From a virus, in IMG/VR virus record IMGVR_UViG_3300043466_002588, positions 1-32,973 of that record: a DNA stretch of 32,973 nucleotides. One strand, 5' to 3'. The position numbers and the translations under genes are program-made. Of this stretch, positions 7,153-24,080 are shown piece by piece (position 1 is the first letter of the stretch; each line of letters begins with the position of its first letter). The notes beneath the pieces were generated by a model that searched no databases, was not told where the DNA came from, and saw nothing but the letters and a program-made list of their open reading frames with translations.

Positions 7153-7162
7153 TTTAATATTT

Positions 7163-7885
7163 TTAGATTATATATTGTTCTCCGTAATTTCTTAAACTTA
7201 AGTATAAAGAATTCATATCAGAATTCCTAAAGTAGTTGTGTAAATTTGTCTCTGCCAATCTACAAAACTCTGACACTCCAATGTCAATTTTGTTTTGTGC
7301 AAAGGTTTGTGAGTTTAAATGACAAATGGTATGATTGTCAGACACAACTGTTTTTAGTTTATTCTGTTCTGTAATACATCCAGTATAAAAATCAATTCCC
7401 CAACCATACATTAATTCATTTGGATATTGTTTAATCAACTCTAAAACACTTCTATGTATAAGTGGACATTGAAAGTCTATCCATTTTACTTCTCTCAATC
7501 CTCTACCCCAATTCCACATTTGTTTCCAATGACACTGTTCCATTGATGCATTAATGACCGAAGGTGAATATACCGAGGCGTTAGACTCTTCAGCTTCCTT
7601 TATGGAGGTTGATAAGAATGAAGGGCCGTGAAATATTAAATCGTTATTTAAAAAGTAAAGATACTCGTGTTTTGTTGAGAGAAAATAATCAACAACTACA
7701 TTAATGCCTCCTCCAAAAAATATATTCTGTTCTATTTGATGAGTTGTTGATTTTGCTAATTGCTCTTTTGAACCATTATCTAAAACCATAAGTTCACACT
7801 TATTAAAATATGAATCTCTTTTTAATTGTTCTACTAGATTATCTGTTAAATCTGGTAAATTGTGATTTAATGTTGCTATTAACAT
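7163..7885 (-). CDS. Glycosyltransferase family 2
   Basis: This 240-residue GT-A enzyme has the pattern LDNGS (35-39), the glycine loop FFGGGINV (57-64) and the metal/nucleotide motif FLNNDLIF (79-85). These resemble rhamnosyl- or galactosyltransferases of the WbbL/GlfT type, in which an NxD motif replaces DXD. After residue 150, YGWGIDFYTG provides the likely catalytic Asp region. No membrane segment is visible, so it probably works in the host cytoplasm. It is followed by the FkbM gene with 10 bases between them and preceded by the RgpF-like gene with one base between them. Confidence 0.85.
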   Translation of the reverse strand: MLIATLNHNLPDLTDNLVEQLKRDSYFNKCELMVLDNGSKEQLAKSTTHQIEQNIFFGGGINVVVDYFLSTKHEYLYFLNNDLIFHGPSFLSTSIKEAEESNASVYSPSVINASMEQCHWKQMWNWGRGLREVKWIDFQCPLIHRSVLELIKQYPNELMYGWGIDFYTGCITEQNKLKTVVSDNHTICHLNSQTFAQNKIDIGVSEFCRLAETNLHNYFRNSDMNSLYLSLRNYGEQYII

Positions 7886-7886
7886 A

Positions 7887-8732
7887 TTAAATATAATTGT
7901 AATTAGGTGGAGTTAATTGATCAAATTTATAGTTAGTTAAATATAAATTAATTTCAGACATCTTACTAGTTAAGTTATTAGTTACAGCCCATTTTTCTGT
8001 TAAATCTACAATATCAAATCCATTCATAGTAATCTTATTTTCTACATAAAGAAAATAACCCAATCTAGATACTATAAAAGGGAATACTCCTTCAAAATAA
8101 TACCTTCCTAAATTTGAGTCATACCATTTATCTGTTATCAAAGATAAAAATTTATTAATGATATCTCCCTTTATAGCATATAGTGTATGTATATAGAAGA
8201 AATTAGAATGAGTATATGGTAAATCCTCTGTTATCTTATTTTCAAAAAGAGGAATTTCTACATCTTTTTCTATATAATGTTTATTATTATCATATTCTAC
8301 AGAAAGCATACCATATGATCCGATTACTGGATTATTATTAAGTATATTTTCAATAGCATCTTTACGATTTAGAAAATTTTTTATATACCAACTTCTAAGA
8401 TAATCACTATGAGAATTTACTGCCCCTTTTGTATGTATAAACCAACAAGTATCATAATCTCTCTTTGATTCTTTTAATAATTTTAAAGATATTTGATATG
8501 CTGAGGCATCACTTTCAGTATATAGAATATCAGATACTCTTGACATTGCTACTACCTTAATTCCACTATCAATTATTATATTTTCGACATCCTTAATACT
8601 ACCAGGATTTATTCCTATATATAAATCGCAATCATAAAATTTATCTTTTATAACTTTAAGAAATTCATATAATACAAAAGTTCTCTGCTCTGTTAAGATT
8701 GTACAAGCAAATAAAATACAACTTTTTTTCAT
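7887..8732 (-). CDS. RgpF-like (rhamnan synthesis F-type) glycosyltransferase domain protein
   Basis: In this 281-residue protein, the segment CWFIHTKGAVNSHSDYLRSW (97-115), followed by a helix and NPVIGSYG (134-141), matches the pattern of rhamnan synthesis protein F-like glycosyltransferases: IHTK, then a W-R/L segment, then NP-IG. The N-terminus (SCILFACTIL) is a hydrophobic strand rather than a clear membrane helix. The donor sugar cannot be read from sequence. It is very AT-rich. The start coincides with the last base of the upstream methyltransferase gene's stop codon (8732), indicating translational coupling. Confidence 0.7.
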   Translation of the reverse strand: MKKSCILFACTILTEQRTFVLYEFLKVIKDKFYDCDLYIGINPGSIKDVENIIIDSGIKVVAMSRVSDILYTESDASAYQISLKLLKESKRDYDTCWFIHTKGAVNSHSDYLRSWYIKNFLNRKDAIENILNNNPVIGSYGMLSVEYDNNKHYIEKDVEIPLFENKITEDLPYTHSNFFYIHTLYAIKGDIINKFLSLITDKWYDSNLGRYYFEGVFPFIVSRLGYFLYVENKITMNGFDIVDLTEKWAVTNNLTSKMSEINLYLTNYKFDQLTPPNYNYI

Positions 8733-9346
8733 TACTTTTTTATTATAAAAGCTATATCAGATACATTACCTTTCTCAATGTATATAGTATCTATATTATT
8801 ATTAAGATATTCAATCTCATCAATAGTCATACAATTACTTATTATACTTCTTGTTGATTGGAATATTTGTAACATGTGTAAAGTATCTGTATCTCCTTCT
8901 CTAGTATAAGACGGATTCCCACAAGTATGTAAATCTTCTATAACAAAAATACCTCCAGAAGCTAAAAATGGAAACATATACCCTAAAGTTATCTGTTGTT
9001 GATGCATCATATGACCACCATCATCTATTATTATATCAAATATTCCATAAGTAGTATCTATTAACTTTTGTAAATCTTCCCTATTAGATTGATCACATAT
9101 TTTTATTTTTGTATTAGGCAGTGATATATGTGATAGATCTAAAATATCAGCTCCAACTAAATTTCCACAATTAAAATATTCTCTCCACATTTTAATACTC
9201 TCTCCTTTCCATAAACCTATCTCTAAAAAATTAGTTAAAGTAAATCTATACTTATTAAAATACTTTTCATATATATTCAAATAGTTATGATATATCTCTC
9301 CTTTATCTGATTCGTAACTTTTACTTATTTGTTCTAATGTTTTCAT
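8732..9346 (-). CDS. Class I SAM methyltransferase, macrocin/mycinamicin O-methyltransferase-like
   Basis: I choose the ATG at 9346 (MKTLEQISKSY), one base after the upstream stop; a TTG three codons earlier is possible but less likely. The product has 204 residues. LEIGLWKGES (41-50) is the SAM loop. IIDDGGHMMHQQ (107-117) and VIEDLHTC (135-142) match the sugar O-methyltransferase group around MycE/TylE and cephalosporin hydroxylase-like proteins, where the IDDGxH Asp residues and His bind metal and SAM. In this cluster it probably methylates a sugar hydroxyl. It is encoded between two glycosyltransferase-like genes. Confidence 0.83.
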   Translation of the reverse strand: MKTLEQISKSYESDKGEIYHNYLNIYEKYFNKYRFTLTNFLEIGLWKGESIKMWREYFNCGNLVGADILDLSHISLPNTKIKICDQSNREDLQKLIDTTYGIFDIIIDDGGHMMHQQQITLGYMFPFLASGGIFVIEDLHTCGNPSYTREGDTDTLHMLQIFQSTRSIISNCMTIDEIEYLNNNIDTIYIEKGNVSDIAFIIKK

Positions 9347-9347
9347 T

Positions 9348-10151
9348 TTATTCAAAATTATATATTGATTGAATACCTATACCTAAATATAGATTTGTTA
9401 TCTTATCTACTCCATAATTATATTGTTTATCATAATCATATTGATGTGGATAATGGTAATTTTTAAATAATGGCCCTTTAGGCATTAATCTTATTTCTTG
9501 ACTATATAGTAACCACTCTCCATACCAAGTAAATTCTGATGGATTTATAGATATTAATTCTTCAAATTCAATGTTATTATATATCATGTAGTTATCATAT
9601 AGACTCTTCCAGATCTTTGTTGACCATATAGTAGGTCCTGGTCCGAAATCATAAATTACACCTGTTCTATTAAAAAGTTCCATTATATGGAGTCTTTCCT
9701 TGACGAAGGATTCTCTAGGATTAAAAGTCAAATTCTGACCTTTTTCATAATATGGGTGCTTTTCTAAAAATTCAAAGAAGTATTTATACTCATGGCATAT
9801 AGTATAAGGAGTCTCATCATCAAACATAAAATCGCTAACACGGAAAGGTTTTATGAAAAAACAATCAGAGTCTATACAAACATAATTCTCACAAAGATCC
9901 AACTTCCAAAATTGACTCTTTACTACTTGCTGACCTATCCAACCACCTTTCGTAATGCTAATATCCTCATCTTTTAATAAAGTATATCCAGAAGTTCCTA
10001 AAGTATCTTTAAATAATTTCAAATCTGATTCAGGTACTGATATATAAAATGGAATATTATCAACATTATATTTTAAAATACTCTCTAATAATTTTTTAGC
10101 TCTAAATACATCTTTAGAATAACTTTTACAATATAATACTACTTTATTCAT
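9348..10151 (-). CDS. DUF6492-like glycosyltransferase-type protein
   Basis: In this 267-residue protein, the GT-A-like core shows a first strand VVLYCKSYSKD, then GGWIGQQVVK (69-78) and the likely metal-binding VCIDSDCFF (91-99), where D94-S-D96 is a DXD. These features match my memory of the DUF6492 family, which is found among polysaccharide genes and probably transfers sugars. A Tyr/Phe-rich C-terminal half follows (YHYPHQYDYD). It is five bases downstream of the second FkbM gene. It is strongly AT-rich, as are the genes on either side. Confidence 0.75.
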   Translation of the reverse strand: MNKVVLYCKSYSKDVFRAKKLLESILKYNVDNIPFYISVPESDLKLFKDTLGTSGYTLLKDEDISITKGGWIGQQVVKSQFWKLDLCENYVCIDSDCFFIKPFRVSDFMFDDETPYTICHEYKYFFEFLEKHPYYEKGQNLTFNPRESFVKERLHIMELFNRTGVIYDFGPGPTIWSTKIWKSLYDNYMIYNNIEFEELISINPSEFTWYGEWLLYSQEIRLMPKGPLFKNYHYPHQYDYDKQYNYGVDKITNLYLGIGIQSIYNFE

Positions 10152-10155
10152 CTTT

Positions 10156-10911
10156 TTATTTTTTTGGCATCCATATTGTTCTGTTAGAATCAGTCATTTC
10201 TTTTTGTAATATTTCTAGATAATTCTCAACTTTCTTATTATCTAAATCATATACATCATAATTAATGGACTCTACAAATGTTACAATATCTTCAATAGAG
10301 TTATTATATTGTATTAAGAATTTTGGATGTACTTCTATGAATATTATGGGTTTAAATTTATTTATAGAATTTTTTGCAGCAGATAAAGCCTTATATTCGC
10401 ATCCTTCTATATCAATTTTAATAACATCTGGAGTAATATTAAACATATCTACTATTGTATCAACTGTAAGCATTACTTTTGTATCATCTCCTGGAATAGC
10501 TAATGATTGTAATGATTCTGAAAAGCACTTTATAATGCCATCCATATCTCCTATCAAAAAATTAAATACATTGAAGTTTGTTAAATTATTTATATATTTA
10601 ATTTGACTTGTAGTTAGATAGGGGTTTATACCGCCATCAAATGCAAATACTTTTTTATCTAATGAATCTCCTATAAAAGTAAAACTAAATGATCCGAATT
10701 GTGATCCTAAATCTAATAATTCTTTTTTATTTTTAGTTAAACGAATAAAATTATCCATCTCCTTAACTTGAGAATTAAATCTAAGATACCATTCACTAGT
10801 ATCGGTTTCATTAAGATTAAAATGTGCTAGCATATGATGCTTAATACCTTCATCATTTTCTGCTATTGATCCAATATATAATTCTTTACCGTTATATTTT
10901 TGTATCTTCAT
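10156..10911 (-). CDS. FkbM family SAM-dependent methyltransferase (second copy)
   Basis: This 251-residue protein has the SAM loop LLDLGSQFGSFS (65-76), an acidic strand end FAFDGG (89-94), and the FkbM signature KIDIEGCEYKAL (165-176) followed by PIIFIEVHP. It is clearly a different lineage from the copy at 6538-7152: it has a 60-residue N-terminal extension and low identity outside the motifs, so this is not a recent duplication. It probably methylates a different position or sugar of the same glycan. It sits five bases after the PIG-L deacetylase gene. Confidence 0.87.
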   Translation of the reverse strand: MKIQKYNGKELYIGSIAENDEGIKHHMLAHFNLNETDTSEWYLRFNSQVKEMDNFIRLTKNKKELLDLGSQFGSFSFTFIGDSLDKKVFAFDGGINPYLTTSQIKYINNLTNFNVFNFLIGDMDGIIKCFSESLQSLAIPGDDTKVMLTVDTIVDMFNITPDVIKIDIEGCEYKALSAAKNSINKFKPIIFIEVHPKFLIQYNNSIEDIVTFVESINYDVYDLDNKKVENYLEILQKEMTDSNRTIWMPKK

Positions 10912-10916
10912 AATAT

Positions 10917-11552
10917 TTATTTATACAGTGTTATTATTTTATAAGACTCTACGAAACCCATTCCTTTTTTCATGCACTGGTAATTAGTGTGAAATCCATC
11001 AAATACATTATCTTTAAAGTACGGCTTTCCTTTTTGAGATACGAAGCTCATTAACATACTTTTCTTTATTTTATAGCACTCTTCATCTACTGTTACAAAT
11101 AAGTTAGGAATCCAAGTCTCTAAAGTAGATGGGGATTTATATTGTATTATACTATGGGGTATTGCTCTACATAATGGAGCTGCTAGTGTTGATACAGTCA
11201 CATGCTCATGATGACTATCAAAATCTGATGTTGTCATTATGCAATCATATGAATTCTTATGAGTATGTACTCTTTCTATATATTCTACCCATTGATCTAC
11301 GCCTCTACTACTTAATACATCAACATCACTAAATAGTAATGTATAATTAGTGGCTTGCGATTTTTTCCATGAATCTACAACTTCTTTATGTCTACTTTCA
11401 CTAGTTGTTTTATCACATCTACCACCTTGAGTTAAACATAATATATCAAAATGAGTTTCTGGATGTTGCATTATAGTTGCGGCTATACTATATTCTGCAT
11501 CATCTGGGTGTGGTGCTAAACATAGCACTTTACTAAAATTTAAAAATTTCAT
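10917..11552 (-). CDS. PIG-L (LmbE-like) N-acetylglucosaminyl deacetylase
   Basis: In this 211-residue protein, APHPDDAE (13-20) is the zinc- and catalysis-defining motif of the PIG-L family (H15, D17/D18) and SHHEHV (113-118) supplies the third zinc ligand and partner His. Family members remove the N-acetyl group from GlcNAc-type sugars in GPI, mycothiol, bacillithiol and glycopeptide pathways. Within this cluster it probably deacetylates an N-acetyl sugar, which the hexapeptide-repeat acyltransferase next to it could re-acylate with another group. The pairing is suggestive but unproven. No signal peptide is visible. Confidence 0.88.
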   Translation of the reverse strand: MKFLNFSKVLCLAPHPDDAEYSIAATIMQHPETHFDILCLTQGGRCDKTTSESRHKEVVDSWKKSQATNYTLLFSDVDVLSSRGVDQWVEYIERVHTHKNSYDCIMTTSDFDSHHEHVTVSTLAAPLCRAIPHSIIQYKSPSTLETWIPNLFVTVDEECYKIKKSMLMSFVSQKGKPYFKDNVFDGFHTNYQCMKKGMGFVESYKIITLYK

Positions 11553-11553
11553 A

Positions 11554-12408
11554 TTATTTTTTTCTTATTAAATTAAACTTAAATCCATGAGGAACAAATA
11601 TCCTTATTCCATATCTTCTTATAAAATCTCTAAAAGCATCTGTAACATCATCGTGTTCTCCTTCGCAAGTTAGATTTTTTACGTCTATCTTTAAATTATT
11701 TATGTTTATATACGGATAATTAGCTTCTATAAATAATTTATTTTCTATATGGTAATACTTCATCAAATTTAAAAAATCTTGAACTATACCATTTAATAAA
11801 GCTTCTTTAATTTTACTAGTAGGTTCTTCTATATATTTTATTAACTTTGCTGGAGATCCTGCATATATAGCTTTACTTTGTGTAATAGATTTTGTTATTG
11901 TTGAATTAGATCCTATTACTACATCATTACATATAGAAACTCCACCCATTATCATAGTCTTCCACCCAACTATAACATTATTTCCTATTTCTATTCCTTC
12001 AAAAAACCTTGGATATCCTTCTAATATTGATGCCCAAAATCCATGAGTTATTATATCTACATCATGAGATAGCCCAACATCATTACCAATCTTAACAGGA
12101 CTTGCTAAATTTATATGACCAGTATGACATACAACTCTATCTCCTATTATTAATTTGGCATTTGGAAAATTTGATGCGCCGCCACCTATAACCATTCCTC
12201 TAGAATCTGTAGGCATATTAAAGAAATATTCTCCTATAATTAATTCTTCAGCATTAGCCTTAAATCTATCTCCGATATAACTATTATCTCCTATTTTTAA
12301 TTGACCTCTAACATGTATATCTACATCTTTTCCAAATGTAACATTATTTCCTATTTGTATATCATTAGCAATAATGTTTATATTTTTTGCTTTATCTACG
12401 TAATTCAT
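11554..12408 (-). CDS. Left-handed beta-helix (hexapeptide repeat) acyltransferase
   Basis: In this 284-residue protein, residues ~10-190 carry imperfect hexapeptide repeats of the form [IV]-G-N/D-x-x (IQIGNNV, LKIGDNSYIGD, VKIGNDVGLS, IEIGNNVIVG, VVIGSNSTI). The fold ends at AIYAGSPAKLIKYI, the typical closing turn of the LbH acetyltransferases that includes maltose and serine acetyltransferase relatives. The C-terminal ~85 residues form a separate helical domain. It probably transfers an acetyl or other acyl group to a sugar. The SDR gene precedes it with a one-base overlap (12408) and the deacetylase gene follows after one base. Confidence 0.85.
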   Translation of the reverse strand: MNYVDKAKNINIIANDIQIGNNVTFGKDVDIHVRGQLKIGDNSYIGDRFKANAEELIIGEYFFNMPTDSRGMVIGGGASNFPNAKLIIGDRVVCHTGHINLASPVKIGNDVGLSHDVDIITHGFWASILEGYPRFFEGIEIGNNVIVGWKTMIMGGVSICNDVVIGSNSTITKSITQSKAIYAGSPAKLIKYIEEPTSKIKEALLNGIVQDFLNLMKYYHIENKLFIEANYPYININNLKIDVKNLTCEGEHDDVTDAFRDFIRRYGIRIFVPHGFKFNLIRKK

Positions 12409-13055
12409 TAGATTATACCTCCGCTTATATTTATGTTCTGTCCAGTAATATATTCTGATTCAATCAAATATTCAATAGATTGTTGCAACTCTTTAATAGT
12501 CCCCCATCTTTTCATAGGAATAGTTGCTTTAAGTTCCTCTCTGAATGTTTGTGGTATTTTATAAGTTAAACCTCCATCAAAGTATCCTAATTGTAAACTA
12601 TTACAATTTATATTTTTATTAGCATTTTCTAGAGCTACTACTTTAGTAAAACTATCTATAAATCCTTTACACCCAGAATACACGCTAGTACTTATTACAG
12701 GATGATCTGCTAATATTGATGAAGTTAATATAATTCTACCATATTTTTGTTCTCTCATATGCCCTAAACAACTAGAGACTATATTAATAGTTCCTCTTAT
12801 ATTTATATCAATCTGTTTATTGATTTCTATTAATGATTCTTCAATAATCTTATGAGTAAATGTATCATAATTATATCCACTTAAGTTAATAACTATGTCA
12901 GCTTTATTTCTATCAAAAAATAATTTTACCTCTTGATAATTTGTAATGTCTACTTCTGATGAACGGACTCCTATAATTTTATATTTATCTTCTAATAACG
13001 GAGCTAATTGACTTCCTAATCCTCCTCCAGATCCAAATAATACTATTGTTTTCAT
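12408..13055 (-). CDS. Short-chain dehydrogenase/reductase
   Basis: This 215-residue SDR has the cofactor loop LFGSGGGLGS (6-15), VDIT (35-38), the NLSG (57-60) counterpart of NNAG, a catalytic Ser in LTSSI (110-114), and Y126-x-x-x-K130 (YSGCK). It ends in YITGQNINISGG, typical of the classical family. NADP preference cannot be decided. In this context it probably oxidises or reduces a nucleotide sugar or sugar precursor. It is joined by one-base overlaps to the genes on both sides, so it is translated as part of the cluster. Confidence 0.9.
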   Translation of the reverse strand: MKTIVLFGSGGGLGSQLAPLLEDKYKIIGVRSSEVDITNYQEVKLFFDRNKADIVINLSGYNYDTFTHKIIEESLIEINKQIDINIRGTINIVSSCLGHMREQKYGRIILTSSILADHPVISTSVYSGCKGFIDSFTKVVALENANKNINCNSLQLGYFDGGLTYKIPQTFREELKATIPMKRWGTIKELQQSIEYLIESEYITGQNINISGGII

Positions 13056-13738
13056 TATATTTTTACTTTACTTGACCAATTACTGCTATTTCTATTCATT
13101 CTACTTAAATAATGTTTTTCATCTTCTGGTAAATTATTAGAATCATAATAGAATGGAGCATGTTTTACTATATATGGATCTCCAATTCTTAGAGTATCAT
13201 TACTCCATATAGGTCTTGTTCCCGGAGAATGTACTGCCATTGTCGTATCTATTGGATGCGGGTATAATTGAATACCATTATCTTCAATGCCATTAGTCCA
13301 GTAAATAGATTCATATTCATAAACCCATTTATTTAAGTCATAATTTAAGTCTATATCATCTATTTTTATTGACATTCCAACTTTAGATTTGCCATATTTT
13401 TTAGCATATCCAATTAAATCATTTACAAATTCATTAGGTACTGTAGTTAATGGTATTATATCACTATCATTGAATACATACCAATTTGATATTATAGAAG
13501 TGAATTTTGGATGACCTATATTTACCAATTGATTAAATGTATCATTACTATTAGGAACTATATCATTGTAAAATATATCTAAATTTGATTCTTTATACCA
13601 TTCTAATAATGGTTGATAAGTAGATTGATTATCTATGATAGTTATATTAGTATATCCTTTACTATATAACACATTTACTTGTTCTATTAATGGATAGAAT
13701 CTATCTCTATTTAATATAACTATAGGAGTATTATTCAT
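13055..13738 (-). CDS. GT-A type glycosyltransferase-like protein
   Basis: This 227-residue protein begins PIVILNRDR, a GT2-like first strand. IIDNQST (34-40) matches the second motif and VFNDSDII (88-95) provides a DSD metal site. The C-terminal half has HSPGTRPIW and a final basic helix. The family resembles GT2 enzymes seen in capsular clusters, but the assignment is by motif order only. It overlaps the upstream GT2 by eight bases. This is roughly the right-hand edge of the very AT-rich block. Confidence 0.75.
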   Translation of the reverse strand: MNNTPIVILNRDRFYPLIEQVNVLYSKGYTNITIIDNQSTYQPLLEWYKESNLDIFYNDIVPNSNDTFNQLVNIGHPKFTSIISNWYVFNDSDIIPLTTVPNEFVNDLIGYAKKYGKSKVGMSIKIDDIDLNYDLNKWVYEYESIYWTNGIEDNGIQLYPHPIDTTMAVHSPGTRPIWSNDTLRIGDPYIVKHAPFYYDSNNLPEDEKHYLSRMNRNSSNWSSKVKI

Positions 13739-14597
13739 TTGTAATATTTTTAATCATGCCGAACTCATTAAATATAGGAAATCCTCCCCATTTATCCAAC
13801 CATTTTCTAACATTTTTCTCTTCAGCATCTTTTTGACGTGCAGAAGTTTTTCCGTTATTTTCTTCTAGTCTGTGTGAACCTCGAGCTCCGAAGTGCCAAA
13901 CAACTGACGTTATTGGTAAAATGAATCGAACTCCATACTGTAACATCCGTAAAAATAAATCCATGTCGTCCCAAGATGTTGGTGCGAATCTAGGATCGTT
14001 ACCGCCCACTTCGTCCCACACAGATTTTTTTACTAAACCAGAAACGCCTTCTCCTTTAGGAACTTCATATTCTGGATTCAATTGTTTAAATTCTTCAACC
14101 CACTTTTCAAATTCATAACTTTGAAAGTCATAGTGGTATGCACCAAACGTGTCTAATGGAACAAATGTAGTTCCGTGACGAGGTGGAGAGTTAAATGTAT
14201 TTGGTTCTATACGATACGAATTTACCCATAATTTTTCATCTGGATATTTTTCGTGATACTTTAATAATTCAACGTCCCAGTCTTTTGTAACGTAAAAGTC
14301 TGAGTGAAGGAACATGATGTATTCAGTTTCAACTTTATTTGCACAGAAGTTCATGCCACCTCCTATACCTACAGGCGTTTCGTTATGTTCAATGTAGACA
14401 TCTAAATTATACAAGTCTTTGTTGTTTTTTAACCAAATGTCAGTACCATCTGTGCAATTTTCTGCATGTATAATGAATGGCGCATCTTTGAAATGGCTAT
14501 TCTTTCGTACAGATGAAATTGCCAATTTTAAGTAAGGCAAATTGTTATACGTGGAAATGCAAAATGTAAGTGGACTAGAGTTTGGCATAAAAATCAT
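13731..14597 (-). CDS. Glycosyltransferase family 2
   Basis: In this protein of 288 residues (285 from the second Met at 14588), FCISTYNNLPYLK (12-24), ENCTDGTDIWLKNN (46-59) and MFLHSDFYV (95-103, with D100 as the metal-binding residue) define the GT-A domain. GVGSGL-like acceptor contacts (GVSGLVKKSVWDEVGG) and SWDDMDLFLR supply the catalytic-base region, and VVWHFGARGSH follows. It is paralogous to the GT2 at 5379-6545, sharing motif order and a terminal RKWLDKWGG/YLRKWGS segment. Its base composition is nearer that of the phage core than of the AT-rich genes beside it. Both possible starts lie inside the upstream gene's last codons. Confidence 0.85.
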   Translation of the reverse strand: MIFMPNSSPLTFCISTYNNLPYLKLAISSVRKNSHFKDAPFIIHAENCTDGTDIWLKNNKDLYNLDVYIEHNETPVGIGGGMNFCANKVETEYIMFLHSDFYVTKDWDVELLKYHEKYPDEKLWVNSYRIEPNTFNSPPRHGTTFVPLDTFGAYHYDFQSYEFEKWVEEFKQLNPEYEVPKGEGVSGLVKKSVWDEVGGNDPRFAPTSWDDMDLFLRMLQYGVRFILPITSVVWHFGARGSHRLEENNGKTSARQKDAEEKNVRKWLDKWGGFPIFNEFGMIKNITNE

Positions 14598-15186: not shown

Positions 15187-15644
15187 TACTCTTGTGTTTC
15201 CAGATCAAACAATCCTATGTAATCGCATGCCTCAAAGAAGCCGTCTAGTCCAAAGTTTTGTAGCGTCGACGGATCTGACTTGTGTGTCTGGCCCTTGAAC
15301 CTTGGCATCTTCTTCTCCTCTTTTGTGAGCGGTATCGTCTTGATCGCCGAGAAGTAACTATTTACCTCTGATGTGCCATTTAAGAATACGGCGCCCTTGT
15401 CTTGAACATTGATCGTCCTCGGGTACCATACTCTGCCCAGTGCATCTTTTATCTTAGCCGCCTTGTGAAGTTCTGGCATTGTGTCTTCGAATGCTTCAAA
15501 GTCAAACTCACCCTCTATCATGAGGTCTGTGGTCTGGTATCCGCAGTTGAAACATGCATGAGCTTTCTTTGTCTCATTTATATTCTCTGTTATGCAAGAC
15601 TCAGGAGCTTTGCACAGAGGACATTCTATTAGTATCTCTATCAT
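15186..15644 (-). CDS. Zinc-ribbon protein of unknown function inside the glycan cluster
   Basis: In this 152-residue protein, the N-terminus holds C8-x-x-C11 and C31-x-x-C34 (CPLC ... CFNC), a zinc ribbon, followed by an acidic helix (EGEFDFEAFEDTMPEL) and a basic/aromatic C-terminal half with ALGRVWYPRT. No catalytic pattern is visible. It could be a regulator or scaffold protein of the phage. It stands between GT2 and GT4 genes, with single-base overlaps at both ends, so it is co-translated with them, yet nothing in it suggests sugar chemistry. I do not recognise the family. Confidence 0.75.
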   Translation of the reverse strand: MIEILIECPLCKAPESCITENINETKKAHACFNCGYQTTDLMIEGEFDFEAFEDTMPELHKAAKIKDALGRVWYPRTINVQDKGAVFLNGTSEVNSYFSAIKTIPLTKEEKKMPRFKGQTHKSDPSTLQNFGLDGFFEACDYIGLFDLETQE

Positions 15645-16945
15645 TAATCTATCTTTTTGAGTTTTGGTAGTTCTATCTTCTTTAATGTTGGAAGCTTTAA
15701 TGCTACTGGTTTGGGCACTACTTCTAGGATCGTGCTCAGCTTAGTCTTCATCGCATCATAAGAGAAAGCGGTCTTTACATAGTGTGACTGTCTCTTTGCA
15801 TTGTCTGTGTACTTGGCGTAGTTCTCAAACATATCGACCATCTTCTCTGCTGCGAATTTCATGTTTGCTGTAAACCACTTAGATCCTTGTATCAACATAT
15901 TCTGCGCTTGTGCTGATGGGTGGATATCTGTCAATTCTCCTGGTACAAACACCCCATACTCTAGGCTACAGAAGTCCATGTGTCCTGACCAAGCTGATAC
16001 TATCGCCGGCTTCTTGCTCATAAAGAACTCTGCCAATGGACGACCAAATCCTTCTCCCTTTGTGAGGTACAGCATCGCTTTGACCTTGTTATGGTTGTAC
16101 AGGTAGTTCATGTCCTCATCGCTGAGATCTCCGTGTATTAAGTAGATATTCGGCAGGTCCTTTGAGTCGACCTCCTTGCGTATTGCATCTATGTTCTCTA
16201 GGATCGAGTCCCTATCCATGATCGAGTTTGTGCCTCTTGATGTTTTGAGTATCAGCGCAGGCTTCTTCTTCTTGCCTTTGAAAGTCTCAAGGAATGTCTT
16301 TATTGTCAGTCCTAAATTCTTTCTGTCTTCACCGATTACTCCAGGCAACCAATGTCCTACGAACAGGTAACAGAAGGTCTCAGGTATGCTATCAAGAGCC
16401 GCTACCAGATCAGTTTCTGGGATCTCTGAGTCTTCGATGAATAGATACTTCGTGAGATCAATTCCTTCAAATAGAACATCAACTGGACGCTCCAATTTAA
16501 CGTGTCTAATGATCTGTCCTGTGTTCTGATCTTGTTGATTGAACGTTGACTCTTCGAACACCTTCTTTGCGTGCTGAGATGATACTAGTGTGAGGTTCAT
16601 CCTGTTGCAACCGTCTATCCAGCTTGGGTCGCACAGAGTCGTCTCTATGCCTGCTGTGACTCCAATATTGTATTTACCTACTGGTTGGAACTCATTTGGA
16701 ACTGTGATCTGAATCCAAAGATCTGGTTGCTGTGTGAGTTGATTGATGAGAAGAGGTTTTACCCACTGGTATTTCTCTTCATCTGGACTGTGCCAAGCTG
16801 TATTGCCCCATCTCTGAGGAATTACTTTTACGTCCCACTCATCTTTTTTAGACTCATACAGGGCTTTAACGAAATCGTAACTGCGTGCGCCGTATCCACT
16901 TGATGTAAGGATTGGGCAACTTATAACTGCTAATGGTTTTATCAT
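15644..16945 (-). CDS. Glycosyltransferase family 4 (GT-B fold)
   Basis: In this 433-residue protein, the N-terminal domain starts ISCPILTSSGYGARSYDFV (8-26), the acceptor-side glycine loop of GT-B enzymes. The C-terminal domain has a strand-helix pattern with RKNLGLTIKTF (208-218), LILKTSRG, YLIHGDLSDEDM, and the donor-binding motif GEGFGRPLAEFF (297-308) containing the E-x7-E pattern of retaining GT4 enzymes. The C-terminal tail has a Leu/Pro/Lys repeat (LPTLKKIELPKLKKID). The neighbouring gene at 16951 is a second GT4, separated by five bases. Base composition matches the phage core rather than the AT-rich block. Confidence 0.88.
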   Translation of the reverse strand: MIKPLAVISCPILTSSGYGARSYDFVKALYESKKDEWDVKVIPQRWGNTAWHSPDEEKYQWVKPLLINQLTQQPDLWIQITVPNEFQPVGKYNIGVTAGIETTLCDPSWIDGCNRMNLTLVSSQHAKKVFEESTFNQQDQNTGQIIRHVKLERPVDVLFEGIDLTKYLFIEDSEIPETDLVAALDSIPETFCYLFVGHWLPGVIGEDRKNLGLTIKTFLETFKGKKKKPALILKTSRGTNSIMDRDSILENIDAIRKEVDSKDLPNIYLIHGDLSDEDMNYLYNHNKVKAMLYLTKGEGFGRPLAEFFMSKKPAIVSAWSGHMDFCSLEYGVFVPGELTDIHPSAQAQNMLIQGSKWFTANMKFAAEKMVDMFENYAKYTDNAKRQSHYVKTAFSYDAMKTKLSTILEVVPKPVALKLPTLKKIELPKLKKID

Positions 16946-16950
16946 GACTA

Positions 16951-18390
16951 TTAATATACTAGTGGATGTTTAATCTTTTTAGGAGGTAATGCGTCGATCT
17001 TGATGAACTCGAACTCGGCTCTTGGTTTGAATGTGTCTATCGTCTTCTGAAGTGTGTCTGCAACTCCGTCTGCCATTGCTTGACCTGTCATCTTAGATTC
17101 CTGTGAAGTGACCCATTTTCTTCCAGCCATTCCACGCTCTTGTCTTTCTTGAGGAGTCATATCGTAGACCTGCTTTATCGCTTTGGCCACGTCTCTGAAA
17201 TCGCACCTGTCATCGAAGATATAAGGTGTTGGTATTGAACCTACTAAGCTGAGATTGCTAGGGAATACTGGTATTGCCCACTCACCGTGTTCTTTGAGGG
17301 TTCCAAAGTGATTCGATGGCATGTCCTTGCTTGGCTCAAACCATTTGCCGTCCTTTACAAACCTCATCTGATCTTGCATGCCACCTGTTACGTTGGCTAT
17401 GATCATCTTGCCACACATCATCGACTCTGTGATGCTAAGTCCCCAACCCTCATTTGATGATATAAGTGCTGTGACATCTGCCAAGTTATAAAGCAAGTTC
17501 ATCTGCTCTGGAGTGTATCTGTCTTCTGCGAAGTATACTTTCTGGTAAGATGGGTCGCATAGAAGTTCTACTACTTTTGGAAGATCTGTGCCATGCTCAT
17601 CTGCTTTCTGTGTATGTAAAAGCAACGCACACTTCTTGGCCTTCTCTTTGCCTATCGAGTCTGTGAATTGTGCCCATGCTGCGATGAGGTCCGATGTTGA
17701 TTTCCTTCTGATGTTTCTTGCGTTGTACAGGACCACGAACTCGGGATTAAAGTTTCCAAAGATGCTCTTCTTCATCTCCTCCATCTTCGTATTCGCCTCT
17801 GGCATGAACTCTGTTATCGGATGAAACACCTTGTCGTTGATACCGTGCGGAACGTAGTTGATGATCTTGTCCTTTGCCTTGTCTCCCAGTACGAGCTCTG
17901 TCAGTATCTTCGTCTGCTTTGATATGCACATGAACGCATCACAAGACTCGTAATATGATTTGTTGTAGAGTGGAGCTGGAGCGCAATCCCATATAGAGAG
18001 GTACGTGATCGGAACTTTCTTTCTGATCTCTGCTTCCATGTCAAACAGCCATACATAGTATCTTGGGTCTGTGAAAAGCATCAGTGCATCTGGCTTCTCT
18101 ATCTCGATAAGCTGGCGGATCATGTCTGGATTTCCATAACCGTCTGTTGGGTATAAGATCACCGAAGCATCAGAAATACCGAGCATATTGTTAGTATCTT
18201 GTGAAAGGTCTAATCTCTTGCCTTTCTCTGGGTGGTTTATGCCTCCTGACACCTGGACCCAGTTAAACCTGTGTGCGGATCCTAAAACTATTTCCCTTGA
18301 CATCGTAGCCACACCTGAGTGCATTCTAAGATCATCTCCGAGAAATAGTATCTTCTTTCTTTTATTTTGTGGAATGTAACCGTTTATCAT
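16951..18390 (-). CDS. Glycosyltransferase family 4 (GT-B fold), first gene of the glycan cluster
   Basis: In this 479-residue protein, FLGDDLRMHSGVATMSREI (16-34) is the N-terminal glycine-rich acceptor loop, and TYLSIWDCAPAPLY (129-142) lies at the domain cleft. NARNIRRKSTSDLI (223-236, with R229/K230 as likely phosphate ligands) begins the donor domain. NEGWGLSITES (313-323) is the E-x7-E motif of retaining GT4 enzymes. The Asp/Met/Pro-rich C-terminal part is longer than usual for the family. It lies three bases after the stop of the ribbon-helix-helix-like gene, so that gene and the whole glycan cluster may be read as one transcript. Confidence 0.88.
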   Translation of the reverse strand: MINGYIPQNKRKKILFLGDDLRMHSGVATMSREIVLGSAHRFNWVQVSGGINHPEKGKRLDLSQDTNNMLGISDASVILYPTDGYGNPDMIRQLIEIEKPDALMLFTDPRYYVWLFDMEAEIRKKVPITYLSIWDCAPAPLYNKSYYESCDAFMCISKQTKILTELVLGDKAKDKIINYVPHGINDKVFHPITEFMPEANTKMEEMKKSIFGNFNPEFVVLYNARNIRRKSTSDLIAAWAQFTDSIGKEKAKKCALLLHTQKADEHGTDLPKVVELLCDPSYQKVYFAEDRYTPEQMNLLYNLADVTALISSNEGWGLSITESMMCGKMIIANVTGGMQDQMRFVKDGKWFEPSKDMPSNHFGTLKEHGEWAIPVFPSNLSLVGSIPTPYIFDDRCDFRDVAKAIKQVYDMTPQERQERGMAGRKWVTSQESKMTGQAMADGVADTLQKTIDTFKPRAEFEFIKIDALPPKKIKHPLVY

Positions 18391-19879: not shown

Positions 19880-20137
19880 TTAAGAGTGTTGCTTTATTTT
19901 ATTGATCAGTAGTTGCTTTGGCATTGCTCCAGTAGTTCTGTCTACCATTTGACCATTCTTTAAGAAGATCAACGTTGGAACTGAAGTGACTGAATATGCT
20001 GATGCCATAGTAGGATTGTCTTGCGCATCGATGTAGTTTATATTAACTCCTGTCTCTGCTGATACCTGTTGTACTACTGGTTTAAACATCTGGCACGGAC
20101 CGCATGTCTTTGTGCTAAAATATATTATGTTTATCAT
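19880..20137 (-). CDS. Thioredoxin/glutaredoxin-like protein
   Basis: This 85-residue minimal thioredoxin fold has FSTKTCGPCQMFKP carrying the C12-G-P-C15 redox site and SVPTLIFLKNG carrying the cis-proline. It is shorter than E. coli thioredoxin (about 108) because it lacks the first strand and helix, as is usual in phage versions. Its probable job is to reduce the C-terminal cysteine pair of the phage ribonucleotide reductase encoded at the right end of the window. Its ATG overlaps the stop of the thymidylate synthase-family gene (four bases), placing it in the nucleotide metabolism operon. Confidence 0.92.
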   Translation of the reverse strand: MINIIYFSTKTCGPCQMFKPVVQQVSAETGVNINYIDAQDNPTMASAYSVTSVPTLIFLKNGQMVDRTTGAMPKQLLINKIKQHS

Positions 20138-21948
20138 TTTGCTTCTAGTATTGATTTGAATTTAAAATATGATTTGTGCTTTTCTACTCCTGGTATATCC
20201 CAGCCGTTTTCGAAGTCTTTGATTGTGTGATGTGGTTTGATGTAATATTGCCAGATCGGATTTTTGATGTACTTCAACCATACACAAAGCAGATCCTCTA
20301 AGTCCATTGGTTTCATATCATATCTTGCACAAAGCTTTTCAAAGTCCTTATACTTAAATCCTGGCTTGAGTATCTTCATCGATGCGGTTGCTGTAGGTCC
20401 TAGTTTACATGTTGACCACTCATCGATCTCAAATAGTCCTTTGAGTTTTGTATCAAGGTTTACGTAGTTTGCGAGATCGCCTGCCATTAGAAGATAGTGG
20501 AAGTTGAATGCATGTAGCTTGTGCTTAGCATTGTATTGGTTCATCGTGTCTACAATTCCGCTAAGACTAGTTCCTGGTTTGATCTTCTCGATGATATGAT
20601 CTGCCCATGGCTCAAAGTGATTGATAACCAAATCTTTAAGTGGGTATCGTGGAGGTTGATTCACACAGCAGCTTACGAAGTTACCTTTATCCTCTTTCAT
20701 GAACTTGTAGAAATCTTTGTATGATCCGTAGTTCTGGAAGTTTAGTAGGATTGTGTTATTGTACCCGTGATTATATTGATTTGATGTGCCTGATCCAAAT
20801 ATCCTGTGTGCATATATCAAGAATAGGTAGTCGTAAGTTCCCCACTCTGGATTTGCAATTGGCTTATAGATATCCCAGGTAAGTGAGTCTTTGCCCATGA
20901 TATAATCTTCGAGCAGGAATATAAATCCTTCAAACCTTCTATCGATGTTGTGGAATAGGTTTACGTTATCGATGTACCCGTCTCCGGTATTAAACTCCCT
21001 TTTCCTTGTGTCAATAAATACCTTTTCTGTTTTTCGGTTGATATCGATGTAGTAATCCAAACACTCTAGCGCGATAGGATTGTAACCGTTTTGATCTAAT
21101 GTAATATTCACTTTAGCTTTTTTTTCTTTGTCTTTTATCAGATATACGCTTGATGAACCTGGAATAGTCTCTTCTTGATATGGTACTGGTTCTGCCTCAT
21201 CATGATAATCTTCGGTCTGGCATTGATAGTCTTCTGATGAAATAGGTCCTGATACCTCTGTTGTCATCTCTGGAACATCTGAATATTTTACCGATGTATA
21301 ACTAATACTTGGCGTAATCTTGTCATAATGCCTTTCGTATACGTGAAGATTTGTAATAAACCAATGCATTTCCCCAAGCTTAGTATTCGTGTCAAAACAA
21401 ACTTTACTCATCAGCTTTGCAAATGTATACTGATCATTACAGAAGCCGTACCATAGATCAATGCTTCTTGCGAATACTGTGAGATTTAGTTTGCCATCTA
21501 CTACAGTGAAGTTAAGCACAACGTTACAGGGAGTGTCTGCGTCATACCTCTCTAGCTCATTTATGTCATAGTGTACAACTATTGCCCTTCTTGTATTCGG
21601 GTTCTTCTTGAGCTCCTGGATAGCACGATCTAACTGCCCATTCTTGTTCCAAAAGTGACCATAGTTTGAATTCACTTCTGTTGTGCCTGGGACCATCATG
21701 TTCTTCCAGATCTTTGCTCTTTGTGATATCTCAGTTGCATCTCTATTGCCCGTAAGATACCAATGCCACTCGTACTCGGCGTAGTCTTGGCTAAAGTTAC
21801 GCTCTGGCTCTGTGATAATCATTTGCATCGGATTTTCCAAAGTAAATGATTTGTTAAATAGGGCTTTAGTACCTGAAAAGTCTTTGCCCATAAACATAGC
21901 TTCTAAGTAGAGCTGCTTAAATGCTTCGTTTGCGTTTTTAAATCTCAT
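20134..21948 (-). CDS. Thymidylate synthase/pyrimidine hydroxymethylase fused to a helical DNA-base-modification-like domain
   Basis: This protein has 604 residues, more than twice a normal thymidylate synthase. Residues 1-210 are the TS fold: NTRRAIV (R120/R121, phosphate), TPCNVVLNF (C141 nucleophile), ARSIDLWYGFC (R161, D164) and LHVYERH (H202, Y204). Aligning from C141, the E. coli Asn177 position is D172; T4 dCMP hydroxymethylase also has Asp there. An acidic linker (210-290) follows. Residues 290-604 are helical with FNFHYLLMAGDL (481-492) and FEIDEWSTCKLGPTA (506-520). To me these resemble the alpha-glutamyl/putrescinyl thymine pyrophosphorylase and 5-hmdU kinase helical domain group found in phages with hypermodified thymine. 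The TS-domain call is firm; the second domain and the hydroxymethylase activity are inference. It overlaps the dCMP deaminase gene by 11 bases. Confidence 0.8.
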   Translation of the reverse strand: MRFKNANEAFKQLYLEAMFMGKDFSGTKALFNKSFTLENPMQMIITEPERNFSQDYAEYEWHWYLTGNRDATEISQRAKIWKNMMVPGTTEVNSNYGHFWNKNGQLDRAIQELKKNPNTRRAIVVHYDINELERYDADTPCNVVLNFTVVDGKLNLTVFARSIDLWYGFCNDQYTFAKLMSKVCFDTNTKLGEMHWFITNLHVYERHYDKITPSISYTSVKYSDVPEMTTEVSGPISSEDYQCQTEDYHDEAEPVPYQEETIPGSSSVYLIKDKEKKAKVNITLDQNGYNPIALECLDYYIDINRKTEKVFIDTRKREFNTGDGYIDNVNLFHNIDRRFEGFIFLLEDYIMGKDSLTWDIYKPIANPEWGTYDYLFLIYAHRIFGSGTSNQYNHGYNNTILLNFQNYGSYKDFYKFMKEDKGNFVSCCVNQPPRYPLKDLVINHFEPWADHIIEKIKPGTSLSGIVDTMNQYNAKHKLHAFNFHYLLMAGDLANYVNLDTKLKGLFEIDEWSTCKLGPTATASMKILKPGFKYKDFEKLCARYDMKPMDLEDLLCVWLKYIKNPIWQYYIKPHHTIKDFENGWDIPGVEKHKSYFKFKSILEAK

Positions 21949-22417
21949 ATCTTGTAATGTCTATAAATTGCTTGAGGAAATCTATGCCTTCAGTCTTTCT
22001 GTACTGGTCTAAGTATACTACACGTTTTATTCCAGATTGTAGTATTAGTTTTGCACACTCGACACACGGAGACAAAGTAAGGTATAATGCGGCCCCGTCT
22101 ACTGAGTGACCTGTCTTCGCAGCTTTTAGAATTGCATTCATCTCTGCGTGGATCACTTCAGGCACAGTAACGCCATGTCTTTCACAGCAATTATCTACGC
22201 CTGCTGGAGTTCCATTATACCCAAATGATATTATGTTATTATCCTTGACTATGACAGCGCCTACTTTAGATCTTGTGCAATGAGACAGTGTTGAGATCTC
22301 CTTTGCAATATTTAAGTAGACAGTGTCTAGTTTACGTTGTTTTGTCATTTCTTTAAGTTGTGCTTGTGTGTATACGCTGATCTGGACTCCGTATCCGTAT
22401 AAGTTGTAAGTTTCCAT
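21938..22417 (-). CDS. dCMP deaminase
   Basis: I place the start at ATG 22417 (METYNLYGYG), which immediately follows the dUTPase stop and has GGAG nine bases upstream. A longer frame to 22468 would overlap the dUTPase gene by 50 bases. In the resulting 159-residue protein, HAEMNAI (H90, E92) and PCVECAKL (C118, C121) are the zinc and proton-shuttle residues of the cytidine/dCMP deaminase family. RSKVGAVIV and GYNGTPAG are also typical. It converts dCMP to dUMP for thymidylate-type synthesis. The order dUTPase, dCMP deaminase, TS-family enzyme makes a compact dUMP-producing and -using unit. Confidence 0.93.
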   Translation of the reverse strand: METYNLYGYGVQISVYTQAQLKEMTKQRKLDTVYLNIAKEISTLSHCTRSKVGAVIVKDNNIISFGYNGTPAGVDNCCERHGVTVPEVIHAEMNAILKAAKTGHSVDGAALYLTLSPCVECAKLILQSGIKRVVYLDQYRKTEGIDFLKQFIDITRYEI

Positions 22418-22418
22418 C

Positions 22419-22850
22419 TTAGTGTACTCCAGTGCTACCAAATCCTCCAGCGCCTCTTTCTGTTTCAATCTCGTCTAAAGACTCTACCTCTTCTATGTTC
22501 TCGTAGTTCATTTCTATGAGGATAAACTGTATAAGCTTTTGTCCTGGATTGATCATCGATGTGGTTCTTCCTGAGTTGAATACATGGATATGAATCTCTC
22601 CGGTATAATCTTCGTCTACTACCTCTGCGCCTTTTGTGAGTTTATTCTTTGTTGCTACTCCAGACTTATTGTAAGCTATCAGTGCGTATCCAGGTGGTAC
22701 TTGAGCCTTTATGCCTGATGGAATTAGCGCATCTTCTCCAGGTCCTAAAAGAATAGGATTCATATCGTTTGGAGTATAAAAATCGATGCCAGCACTTTTT
22801 GATGTGCCTCTTGATGGTGTTTTAACGTCGCGAATTTTTTGGATCTTCAT
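22419..22850 (-). CDS. dut: dUTP pyrophosphatase (dUTPase)
   Basis: This 143-residue protein has all five motifs of trimeric dUTPase: SAGIDFY (19-25), NKSGVATK (61-68), GAEVVDEDYTGEI (74-86, with D81 as the likely catalytic Asp), PGQKLIQFIL (102-111) and RGAGGFGSTG (132-141, the mobile C-terminal arm). It hydrolyses dUTP to dUMP, keeping uracil out of DNA and feeding the TS-family enzyme. If this phage makes 5-hydroxymethyl-dU, the enzyme would still be needed to limit plain dU. It is one base before the DUF6378-like gene's stop codon. Confidence 0.95.
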   Translation of the reverse strand: MKIQKIRDVKTPSRGTSKSAGIDFYTPNDMNPILLGPGEDALIPSGIKAQVPPGYALIAYNKSGVATKNKLTKGAEVVDEDYTGEIHIHVFNSGRTTSMINPGQKLIQFILIEMNYENIEEVESLDEIETERGAGGFGSTGVH

Positions 22851-22851
22851 T

Positions 22852-23130
22852 CTATTTTGTTTTGTCGTATTCGTCTTTGTAATGCTCTACCATCGCTGTT
22901 AAATATGCTATCGTGTCAAGAACGTTATCGTACTTCTTTGAGTAAGATTCCCTTGACATCTTAAGAGCTACCATACAGAGGTACATGTCTTTTGCGTTGA
23001 TTTGTTTGCCTGTCATAGTAGAAGCCAATGTTGCGGCCTTCTCCATGCTCTCTTTCATAGGACCGTATTTCCTAGAGGATTCTTCAGCTCGGCGATACAC
23101 AATATCTTGAGCGTGTTCGAGTATGTTCAT
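22852..23130 (-). CDS. DUF6378-like protein (MazG-adjacent family of phages)
   Basis: I place the start at ATG 23130 (MNILEHAQDIVYRRAEESS), giving 92 residues. A longer frame to 23274 would run 118 bases into the upstream SGNH-like gene. KYGPMKESMEKAATLASTMTG and the helix MYLCMVALKMSRE followed by DNVLDTIAYLTAMVEHY match DUF6378, a helical family common in large phages that resembles nucleotide-pyrophosphohydrolase helices. I do not see the MazG EExxE metal motif, so enzymatic activity is not supported. It sits directly before dUTPase, which fits a nucleotide-related role. Confidence 0.8.
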   Translation of the reverse strand: MNILEHAQDIVYRRAEESSRKYGPMKESMEKAATLASTMTGKQINAKDMYLCMVALKMSRESYSKKYDNVLDTIAYLTAMVEHYKDEYDKTK

Positions 23131-23156
23131 AATATAATATAAAAATGTTGTGGATA

Positions 23157-24080
23157 TTAGGACAATATTTCTTGTAAGTATGGATAGTATTTTGGCTTTA
23201 TATGTACTGATTGCTTTGATTCCAATACATCTAGCATCTTTGTACCATCTGAGTCTACCCAGTCTTGTGTCCATGATATGTAGTCTAGTCCTGATTGTGC
23301 GATAATTTCGTTTGCGATATCCCTTAATTCCATCCTCAGTTGACGTGTTCCATAGAATGGTTGTCCTTTATAGAGTCCTGTGCCTGGGATTTTTCTAGAC
23401 TCATGTTCTACTGGAAGTAACTGGACTAGGGTTGCGTGGTTTAATTCTTTGGCAAAGTTTACATATTTTGTAAATAATTCCTCTGTGGCTTTGTAAGGAT
23501 CTTCCATGCGACCTAAGTGGAATCTCAGATCAATATTACCAAAGTAAAGGACTACTCCGCCTGGTCTCAATTGATTTATTGCCTGAGCATTTGCGTGTTT
23601 CAACCATCCGTGCAGAGTCTTGCCTTGATTAAAACTTAAAGCATATCCAGGTTTCCATACAGAAAGTGAATGTGAATCTCCAATGACCATATAAGGATTT
23701 GGCTTTGAGAAGTAATCTACTGCACTACTTATAGGCCAATTATTACTGTCAACTTTAATTCTCTGGTTGAACTTTCTAAAATCAAAGGTCTTATTCACAA
23801 ACTCAAACTCACCTTCAAACTTGGATATCGCCTCCATCTTCTGAGTATGAATTGGCTGAGGTCCTCCTGGTACATTGAAGCTACCATCTACGAAGTTTAC
23901 TCCTTCACATACATAGAGCTTTTCATAATCACCCCATGTACTTGGATCTGGATTGACATCTATTGTGTCTTGTGGATTGAGGTCTTTGACCATCTTTGTA
24001 CAAATGAGACCGTAGCCTCCACCCTGTGTATTAAAGGTAGAGCCTACGTTTCCCATTATCGATATAAGTGCTGCTTTCAT
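23157..24080 (-). CDS. SGNH-hydrolase-like protein with N-terminal extension
   Basis: In this 307-residue protein, the C-terminal ~180 residues show the SGNH order: VIGDSHSLS (132-140, block I with S136), a glycine/Trp segment around 150-165, LYFGNIDLRFHL (178-189, block III with G181/N182) and SVHIKPKYY (291-299, block V His293). FGNIDLRFHL resembles the FGEIDCRCH signature of SGNH proteins that occur among polysaccharide genes. SGNH enzymes are esterases or acyltransferases. Residues 1-120 are a separate domain I do not recognise (NVGSTFNTQGGGYG). A purine-rich leader AAAAAGGACACGG precedes the ATG. It lies between groEL and the dUTPase block. Confidence 0.7.
   Translation of the reverse strand: MKAALISIMGNVGSTFNTQGGGYGLICTKMVKDLNPQDTIDVNPDPSTWGDYEKLYVCEGVNFVDGSFNVPGGPQPIHTQKMEAISKFEGEFEFVNKTFDFRKFNQRIKVDSNNWPISSAVDYFSKPNPYMVIGDSHSLSVWKPGYALSFNQGKTLHGWLKHANAQAINQLRPGGVVLYFGNIDLRFHLGRMEDPYKATEELFTKYVNFAKELNHATLVQLLPVEHESRKIPGTGLYKGQPFYGTRQLRMELRDIANEIIAQSGLDYISWTQDWVDSDGTKMLDVLESKQSVHIKPKYYPYLQEILS

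Follow-up and report, generated by a model that had tools for sequence, protein, structure and literature searches.

Introduction

What could a viral protein do that joins an enzyme of the thymidylate synthase (TS) family to an unrelated helical domain? The question is raised by a 604 aa open reading frame with an ATG start on the minus strand (20134–21948) of an IMG/VR record from a bacterial virus of lake type; the entire record, 32,973 bases and probably a fragment of a genome, is referred to here as the window. A preliminary description of this reading frame proposed one protein that makes a 5-hydroxymethyl nucleotide and also carries a domain for altering the base in DNA, with modified thymine as the target. 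Both halves of that proposal hold, the second as a domain of base-altering type that would act in DNA; the target has to be revised and is very probably cytosine instead. The protein is best read, with reasonable but not full confidence, as a fusion of two steps in a phage system for cytosine hypermodification, in which 5hmC is made and then decorated together with an SGNH-like partner.

The fusion protein and its neighborhood

The protein consists of a TS-family domain of the dCMP-hydroxymethylase type (residues 1–213; 21310–21948, minus strand), a variable acidic linker (residues ~214–279; 21112–21309, minus) and a helical C-terminal domain, hereafter CT (residues ~280–604; 20137–21111, minus); the end of the linker (residues 262–279) has a pLDDT below 50 in the structural model. 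The fusion is not an assembly accident, because it recurs at conserved length in ten more contigs from the first scan (L001–L010) and in L064 and L070. The linker is also where relatives are split by homing endonucleases: L011, L012 and L069 encode the hydroxymethylase and CT as two genes, between which a GIY-YIG homing endonuclease lies, and in L013–L016 and L061 CT has decayed or is absent. Homing endonucleases of the GIY-YIG and HNH types have repeatedly entered the cassette described below (L011, L012, L013–L016, L036, L042, L050), in many cases precisely where the hydroxymethylase meets CT or in the stretch separating the SGNH gene from the gene for a PLP enzyme.

The genes of the minus strand are ordered as ribonucleotide reductase, DNA polymerase A, GroES, GroEL, the SGNH-like protein, a DUF6378 protein of the nucleotide module recognized by its Pfam match (22852–23274, minus), a dUTPase identified by family searches (22419–22850, minus) and a dCMP deaminase immediately upstream of the fusion gene (21938–22468, minus). 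The fusion gene is followed by thioredoxin (19880–20137, minus; 4-bp overlap), a zinc ribbon protein, a PD-(D/E)XK nuclease and then glycosyltransferases. Further along, positions 5379–14597 (minus) form an island of low G+C content (24–30%) with glycosyltransferase-, methyltransferase- and sugar-modification-like genes, which was apparently acquired and for which DNA glycosylation, the capsid and the host surface are candidate roles.

The N-terminal domain resembles dCMP hydroxymethylase

The Pfam family Thymidylat_synt (PF00303) matches residues 52–231 at 1.3e-26, and the best PDB match of the fusion protein is T4 dCMP hydroxymethylase (1b49, 1e-15). The nucleophile named in the preliminary description, C141 (codon 21526–21528, minus), aligns with T4 C148, and the Asp that it had placed at the dUMP/dCMP switch, D172 (codon 21433–21435, minus; both codons were computed from the reading frame), aligns with T4 D179 at the position of E. 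coli N177. The T4 residues important for dCMP and folate chemistry are Glu60, Ser94, Tyr96, Asp145, Cys148, Asp171, Asp179 and Tyr218 (PMC6400193). The active-site residues of T4 are kept in the window protein as E60, S94, Y96, D138, C141, D164, D172 and Y204, plus H202 for T4 H216; R120 also matches the T4 enzyme. The domain thus has what characterizes the gp42 type of T4, namely the TS fold, the catalytic Cys and the equivalents of Asp179, Ser94, Tyr96 and Asp145, and like gp42 it has dCMP deaminase and dUTPase genes as partners; it differs from gp42 in its smaller size (213 aa) and in the fusion to CT.

In an alignment of the window domain with T4 gp42, M6 gp58 and the relatives found, Asp occupies the pyrimidine switch in 129/129 homologues, and the Ser94 and Tyr96 equivalents are present in all 129 as well. 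M6, by contrast, hypermodifies thymidine, and its dUMP-type gp58 carries Asn at the switch and Gly at the Ser94 position. In an experimental survey of modified metagenomic DNA, contigs with modified cytosine typically had Asp here, and unmodified contigs had Asn (PMC8670742).

As Pfam and the databases name the family thymidylate synthase, the N-terminal half might be taken for an ordinary phage thymidylate synthase to which an unrelated accessory domain has been attached. This is barely tenable given the Asp in all 129 homologues and the loss of the C-terminal ~50 residues of TS; the domain ends ~10 residues past the HxYxRH motif, has Asp172 where canonical ThyA has Asn, and misses every cut-off of the NCBIfam TS families by about 50 to 550 bits. 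A 158-kb relative (G001) moreover carries a second, canonical ThyA elsewhere in its genome (Asn at the switch, PFNIASYA motif, Pfam 3e-93), so the short Asp-type protein is not its thymidylate synthase. From the Asp kept in all homologues and the canonical enzyme in this relative, the N-terminal half is predicted, very probably correctly, to make 5-hydroxymethyl-dCMP.

Fold and family of the C-terminal domain

CT and its separate-gene relatives gave no family match in Pfam, PHROGs or NCBIfam, only matches at chance level, which agrees with the earlier statement that these residues are not part of a TS. Searches with five CT types by tblastn found no match in 50,697 phage records, and a search of 84,980 genomes of bacteria and archaea gave no CT relative either. 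The AlphaFold model, made from an alignment (A2) of 61 relatives, is all-helical with a pLDDT of 86 and a pTM of 0.85. The conserved residues are Y299, D323, R337, F342, R382, G385, S386, G395, N398, F424, P433, F483, D491, G517, E551, D552, C555 and Y560.

When the model was compared with viral models by Foldseek, the only matches above noise were unnamed phage proteins, two proteins annotated as amino acid:DNA transferase (ADDT; E 1.5e-8 and 0.02) and one annotated as the glutamyl/putrescinyl-thymine pyrophosphorylase aG/PT-PPlase1 (E 5e-4); a structural match to base-modification families, on which the preliminary description had staked its proposal, is therefore present in this forward search. 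The reciprocal search from the M6 ADDT model returned no CT-like protein among the matches listed. In the PDB, the best match of CT is the AGOG 8-oxoguanine glycosylase (7ou3; Z 9.6, 4.7 Å, 210 residues), where the Z score lies below the safe range for a helical protein and may merely mean a common arrangement of helices, followed by DUF2419 of queuine salvage (Z 8.3) and other 8-oxoguanine glycosylases. The model of M6 ADDT gp51 matches the 5-PmdU glycinyltransferase 8z2m (Z 40) and then the DUF2419, AGOG and glycosylase set; as CT and M6 ADDT share AGOG, DUF2419 and the 8-oxoguanine glycosylases as PDB neighbors, they appear to belong to one fold neighborhood. The structure 8z2m is not among the PDB matches listed for CT, an absence which carries no weight.

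The match to AGOG, with its Z of 9.6 over 210 residues, could suggest a true DNA glycosylase that removes, for example, unmodified or hydroxymethylated cytosine, either to attack host DNA or to proofread the modification. Such a function is very improbable, since no invariant or nearly invariant Lys exists among the 61 CT sequences that could serve as the nucleophile of a bifunctional glycosylase, CT is locked into a biosynthetic operon, and a score of this size between helical proteins may reflect a shared arrangement only.

At the level of sequence, the EIDEWSTCKLGP and EDLLC segments of CT correspond, without a shift of register, to motifs found in proteins of the PF18723 and PF18724 types. 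In CT and in the helical domain of 5-hmdU DNA kinase (HMUDK_hel; PF18723, M6 gp55), the D...GPxA and E(D)xxC motifs have the same order and the same register, and both are helical domains paired with a catalytic partner; unlike HMUDK_hel, CT stays below every sequence threshold, and its partner is SGNH-like rather than a P-loop kinase. With ADDT, the 5-PmdU glycinyltransferase (PF18724; M6 gp51, PaMx11 gp46, PDB 8z2m), CT appears from its model to share the helical DNA-glycosylase-like fold, and its gene is likewise paired with a fold-type-II PLP enzyme and a TS-family hydroxymethylase. Unlike ADDT, it lacks a significant sequence or profile match and the RWPRGxERRH signature along with similar invariant ADDT motifs, and it is linked to a hydroxymethylase of the dCMP rather than the dUMP type, with no 5-hmdU kinase.

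PF18723 does not match CT, and PF18724 matches neither the window protein nor any of 20 CT-type records (M6 control 2e-48). Alignments by HHalign of CT with HMUDK_hel, ADDT and the helical domains of Aeromonas phages described below were not significant, with probabilities under 3%; the method has little power here, because HMUDK_hel against ADDT scored nothing either, and the best local pieces, themselves insignificant, sit on the expected D...GPxA and ED..C motifs. As no profile test is significant, CT is formally a member of neither PF18723 nor PF18724. The earlier suggestion that it resembles the aG/PT-PPlase and 5-hmdU-kinase group consequently stands for the fold matches and the motif register and falls for profile membership, and CT is treated, on the basis of its modeled structure, as a new family of the ADDT/DNA-glycosylase-like fold outside both.

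A second protein of ADDT/HMUDK_hel-like appearance (CTb), which has no clear family match, lies beside CT in some loci (L047:8122–8991, L251:5732–6727), and in L047 an HhH-GPD glycosylase-like gene is located between the hydroxymethylase and CT.

A conserved viral cassette

In its usual form, with CT as a separate gene, the cassette is a tight group of genes for an SGNH-like hydrolase/transferase, CT, a PLP enzyme and an Asp-type hydroxymethylase. Neither the separate CT genes nor this cassette, nor the strand of the reading frame, figured in the preliminary description. A scan with CT alone as query gave 79 loci. A TS-family hydroxymethylase is present in 75 of these, and in each of the four exceptions CT lies no more than 1.5 kb from the end of the contig or stretch. 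Asp stands at the switch in every one of the 73 hydroxymethylases that could be aligned. Directly before CT comes the SGNH gene, at a distance of −37 to +6 nt in 60 loci, so that the two overlap or abut; in L079 and L080 they are fused. The gene for a fold-type-II PLP enzyme comes after CT, and in 56 loci its start lies between −55 and +4 nt relative to the CT stop. Of the 80 loci from a scan led by SGNH, 65 have the PLP enzyme, and those that lack it either belong to the window's clade or lie at a contig end; the hydroxymethylases again have Asp throughout (48/48). In IMG/VR, about 100 CT-type and over 300 SGNH-type loci exist. The cassette may also be divided: one 180-kb genome has SGNH and CT at ~136 kb and the PLP enzyme and hydroxymethylase near 36 kb, with all parts present. 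A point against the reading proposed here is that in some relatives SGNH, PLP enzyme and TS occur without a neighboring CT, although the single near-complete genome that was examined for this has CT at another place.

The SGNH-like protein of the window (23157–24080, minus), the constant partner of CT, carries GDSHS, GNIDxRFH and SVHxxP motifs, and residues G134, D135, S136, H137, G153, N182, D184 and H293 are invariant in 47 sequences. The GDS, G, GxND-like and His blocks of SGNH hydrolases are thereby present and the assignment is one at motif level only; PDB and Pfam profiles gave no match. The profile of the PLP enzyme finds only cysteine synthases in the PDB, and these weakly (best E 0.009), although the position of the PLP lysine is invariant; PF00291 is too insensitive for this family and was excluded as evidence.

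The cassette showed no carbamoyltransferase, CmoA/CmoX or ATP ligase, and a search of 20 records for the 5-hmdU kinase PF18748 found none, with M6 as positive control. The absence of this kinase leaves the leaving group unexplained and speaks against the thymidine route having simply been copied. It also bears on the possibility that CT is strictly an amino acid:DNA transferase of the ADDT/PUGT type acting on 5-hydroxymethyl-cytosine, where the amino acid would replace a phosphate or other leaving group placed by a host or unrecognized kinase, and the PLP enzyme would then decarboxylate or rearrange the adduct as in M6. ADDT and aG/PT-PPlase1 are the top annotated fold matches of CT, and the CT-PALP gene pair copies the ADDT-PALP pair of M6; with no PF18748 in the 20 records, invariant motifs such as RWPRGxERRH missing, and the reciprocal fold search giving no CT-like proteins among the matches listed, this alternative is nonetheless unlikely.

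The fusion of the hydroxymethylase to CT, together with the separate SGNH-CT fusions, indicates that all three proteins act in a single process. That CT is joined directly to an enzyme with a mononucleotide substrate might also mean that it acts on a free nucleotide, such as hydroxymethyl-dCMP from the hydroxymethylase, and never touches DNA. This is quite unlikely, as its fold neighbors of known function all act on DNA bases or a nucleoside-type substrate, and most phages tie CT to SGNH rather than to TS, including the fusions in L079 and L080.

The window's clade and its cultured relative immuto

In the window's clade the hydroxymethylase is fused to CT through the variable acidic linker and the PLP gene has been lost; no PLP enzyme was found in the 158-kb relative or in sister contigs, where controls were positive. 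The nearest cultured relative by DNA polymerase (52% identity) is Flavobacterium phage immuto, which keeps the flanking order of GroES, GroEL, zinc ribbon, nuclease and glycosyltransferases. The entire module of the window (19880–24080, minus) has no counterpart in the sequenced stretch of this syntenic phage, in which SGNH, CT, PLP enzyme and TS are all absent. Immuto instead carries the 7-deazaguanine DNA-modification genes DpdA, QueF and FolE. The two systems occupy the same genome neighborhood in related phages, presumably for the same purpose; that of immuto, however, modifies guanine by base exchange and uses unrelated enzymes.

Two glycosyltransferase-like genes of the window (15644–18390, minus) have 56–57% identity to immuto and, being conserved there, are not specific to the cytosine module.

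Related parts in other cultured phages

In the T4-like Aeromonas phages 31, 44RR2.8t and UP87, the SGNH family is fused to a PF18723-like domain; PF18723 is the only notable Pfam match of this domain, at E 0.002–0.004, which is below the cut-off. The gp42 of phage 31 is 55% identical to that of T4. The fusion is an unannotated protein of ~800 aa (phage 31 ORF233c, L261:3184–5571; also L270 and L268). Aeromonas phages 25 and AS-gz have an unfused SGNH protein, encoded close to a gene for UDP-galactopyranose mutase.

The PLP family is found in Erythrobacter phage R6L, where gp1 (L263:7810–10232) has a PALP domain inserted in the middle of a DNA methyltransferase with a ParB-like N-terminus; in Microcystis phage Mae-JY30 (L264:7974–8684) the same parts are neighboring genes, and the family is annotated with methylase genes. 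Phage M6 pairs ADDT (gp51) with PALP (gp52) and has a TS homologue as well. Four independent contexts, the immuto swap, the Aeromonas fusions, the PLP-methyltransferase and the M6 pair, therefore point to DNA modification.

Proposed mechanism and comparison with known pathways

The proposal draws on active-site residues, the fusion, the cassette with its conservation and the module swap, all read from sequence, and on the modeled fold of CT. In the first step, which is strongly supported, the gp42-like residues 1–213 would convert dCMP to 5-hydroxymethyl-dCMP; other kinases would then phosphorylate the product, and it would be polymerized into viral DNA. CT, as a base-handling helical domain of the ADDT or 5-hmdU-kinase-helical type, would bind 5hmC in DNA, probably flipped out; that CT acts on DNA has moderate support.

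The chemistry of the second step, including SGNH catalysis, base flipping and the identity of the substituent, is put forward as a proposal. The SGNH-like protein of the operon could supply a Ser-type transferase/hydrolase active site for placing a substituent on the 5-hydroxymethyl group, whose oxygen would gain or give up the transferred group. Beside CT, SGNH might thus have the part of the P-loop kinase that thymidine-hypermodifying phages combine with HMUDK_hel. In most relatives the fold-type-II PLP enzyme would then remodel the adduct or make the donor, and in phages that have this enzyme an amino-acid moiety is probably involved; as the window's clade has lost it, the end product there should be simpler.

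Hydroxymethyl-based amino-acid hypermodification has been described for thymine, through kinase-activated 5-hydroxymethyl-dU (PMC9599517, PMC12783734). The thymidine pathway of the M6/ViI type does not describe the window, whose enzyme is Asp-type and whose 20 related records hold no PF18748. For cytosine, phage hypermodification pathways include that of the 5hmC carbamoyltransferase, which starts from an Asp177-type TS homologue (MetaGPA, PMC8670742), and the carboxymethylcytosine-glycine pathway (CmoX/CmoY, PMC12783734); the cassette has a different enzyme set from both. In its proposed working the system resembles both the thymidine-hypermodification and the 5hmC-decoration systems, but it fails the defining tests of each. 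More tentatively, it may be an undescribed class in which a new domain of glycosylase fold flips out TS-made 5hmC and an SGNH-type transferase then esterifies or amino-acylates it, the PLP enzyme being optional, with the base-making and base-decorating domains forming one polypeptide in the window's clade.

Significance

No description of the cassette was found in an incomplete body of literature, whose search also gave nothing on SGNH with hydroxymethylcytosine in phage. What is rated as new is the cytosine-directed cassette, the new domain family and the unusual fusion of maker and decorator. As CT and SGNH have no Pfam or NCBIfam family, they may define new families of DNA-modifying proteins. 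By hypermodifying their DNA, phages overcome restriction enzymes and CRISPR, and such systems have already yielded useful enzymes; the occurrence of single-part relatives in cultured phages (Aeromonas 31 and 44RR2.8t, Erythrobacter R6L) makes the cassette testable now. It is widespread among viruses, yet undescribed, and looks like a route parallel to the thymine one that starts from hydroxymethyl-cytosine and uses different catalytic partners; it probably decorates cytosine in the virus's own DNA, hiding it from host defences.
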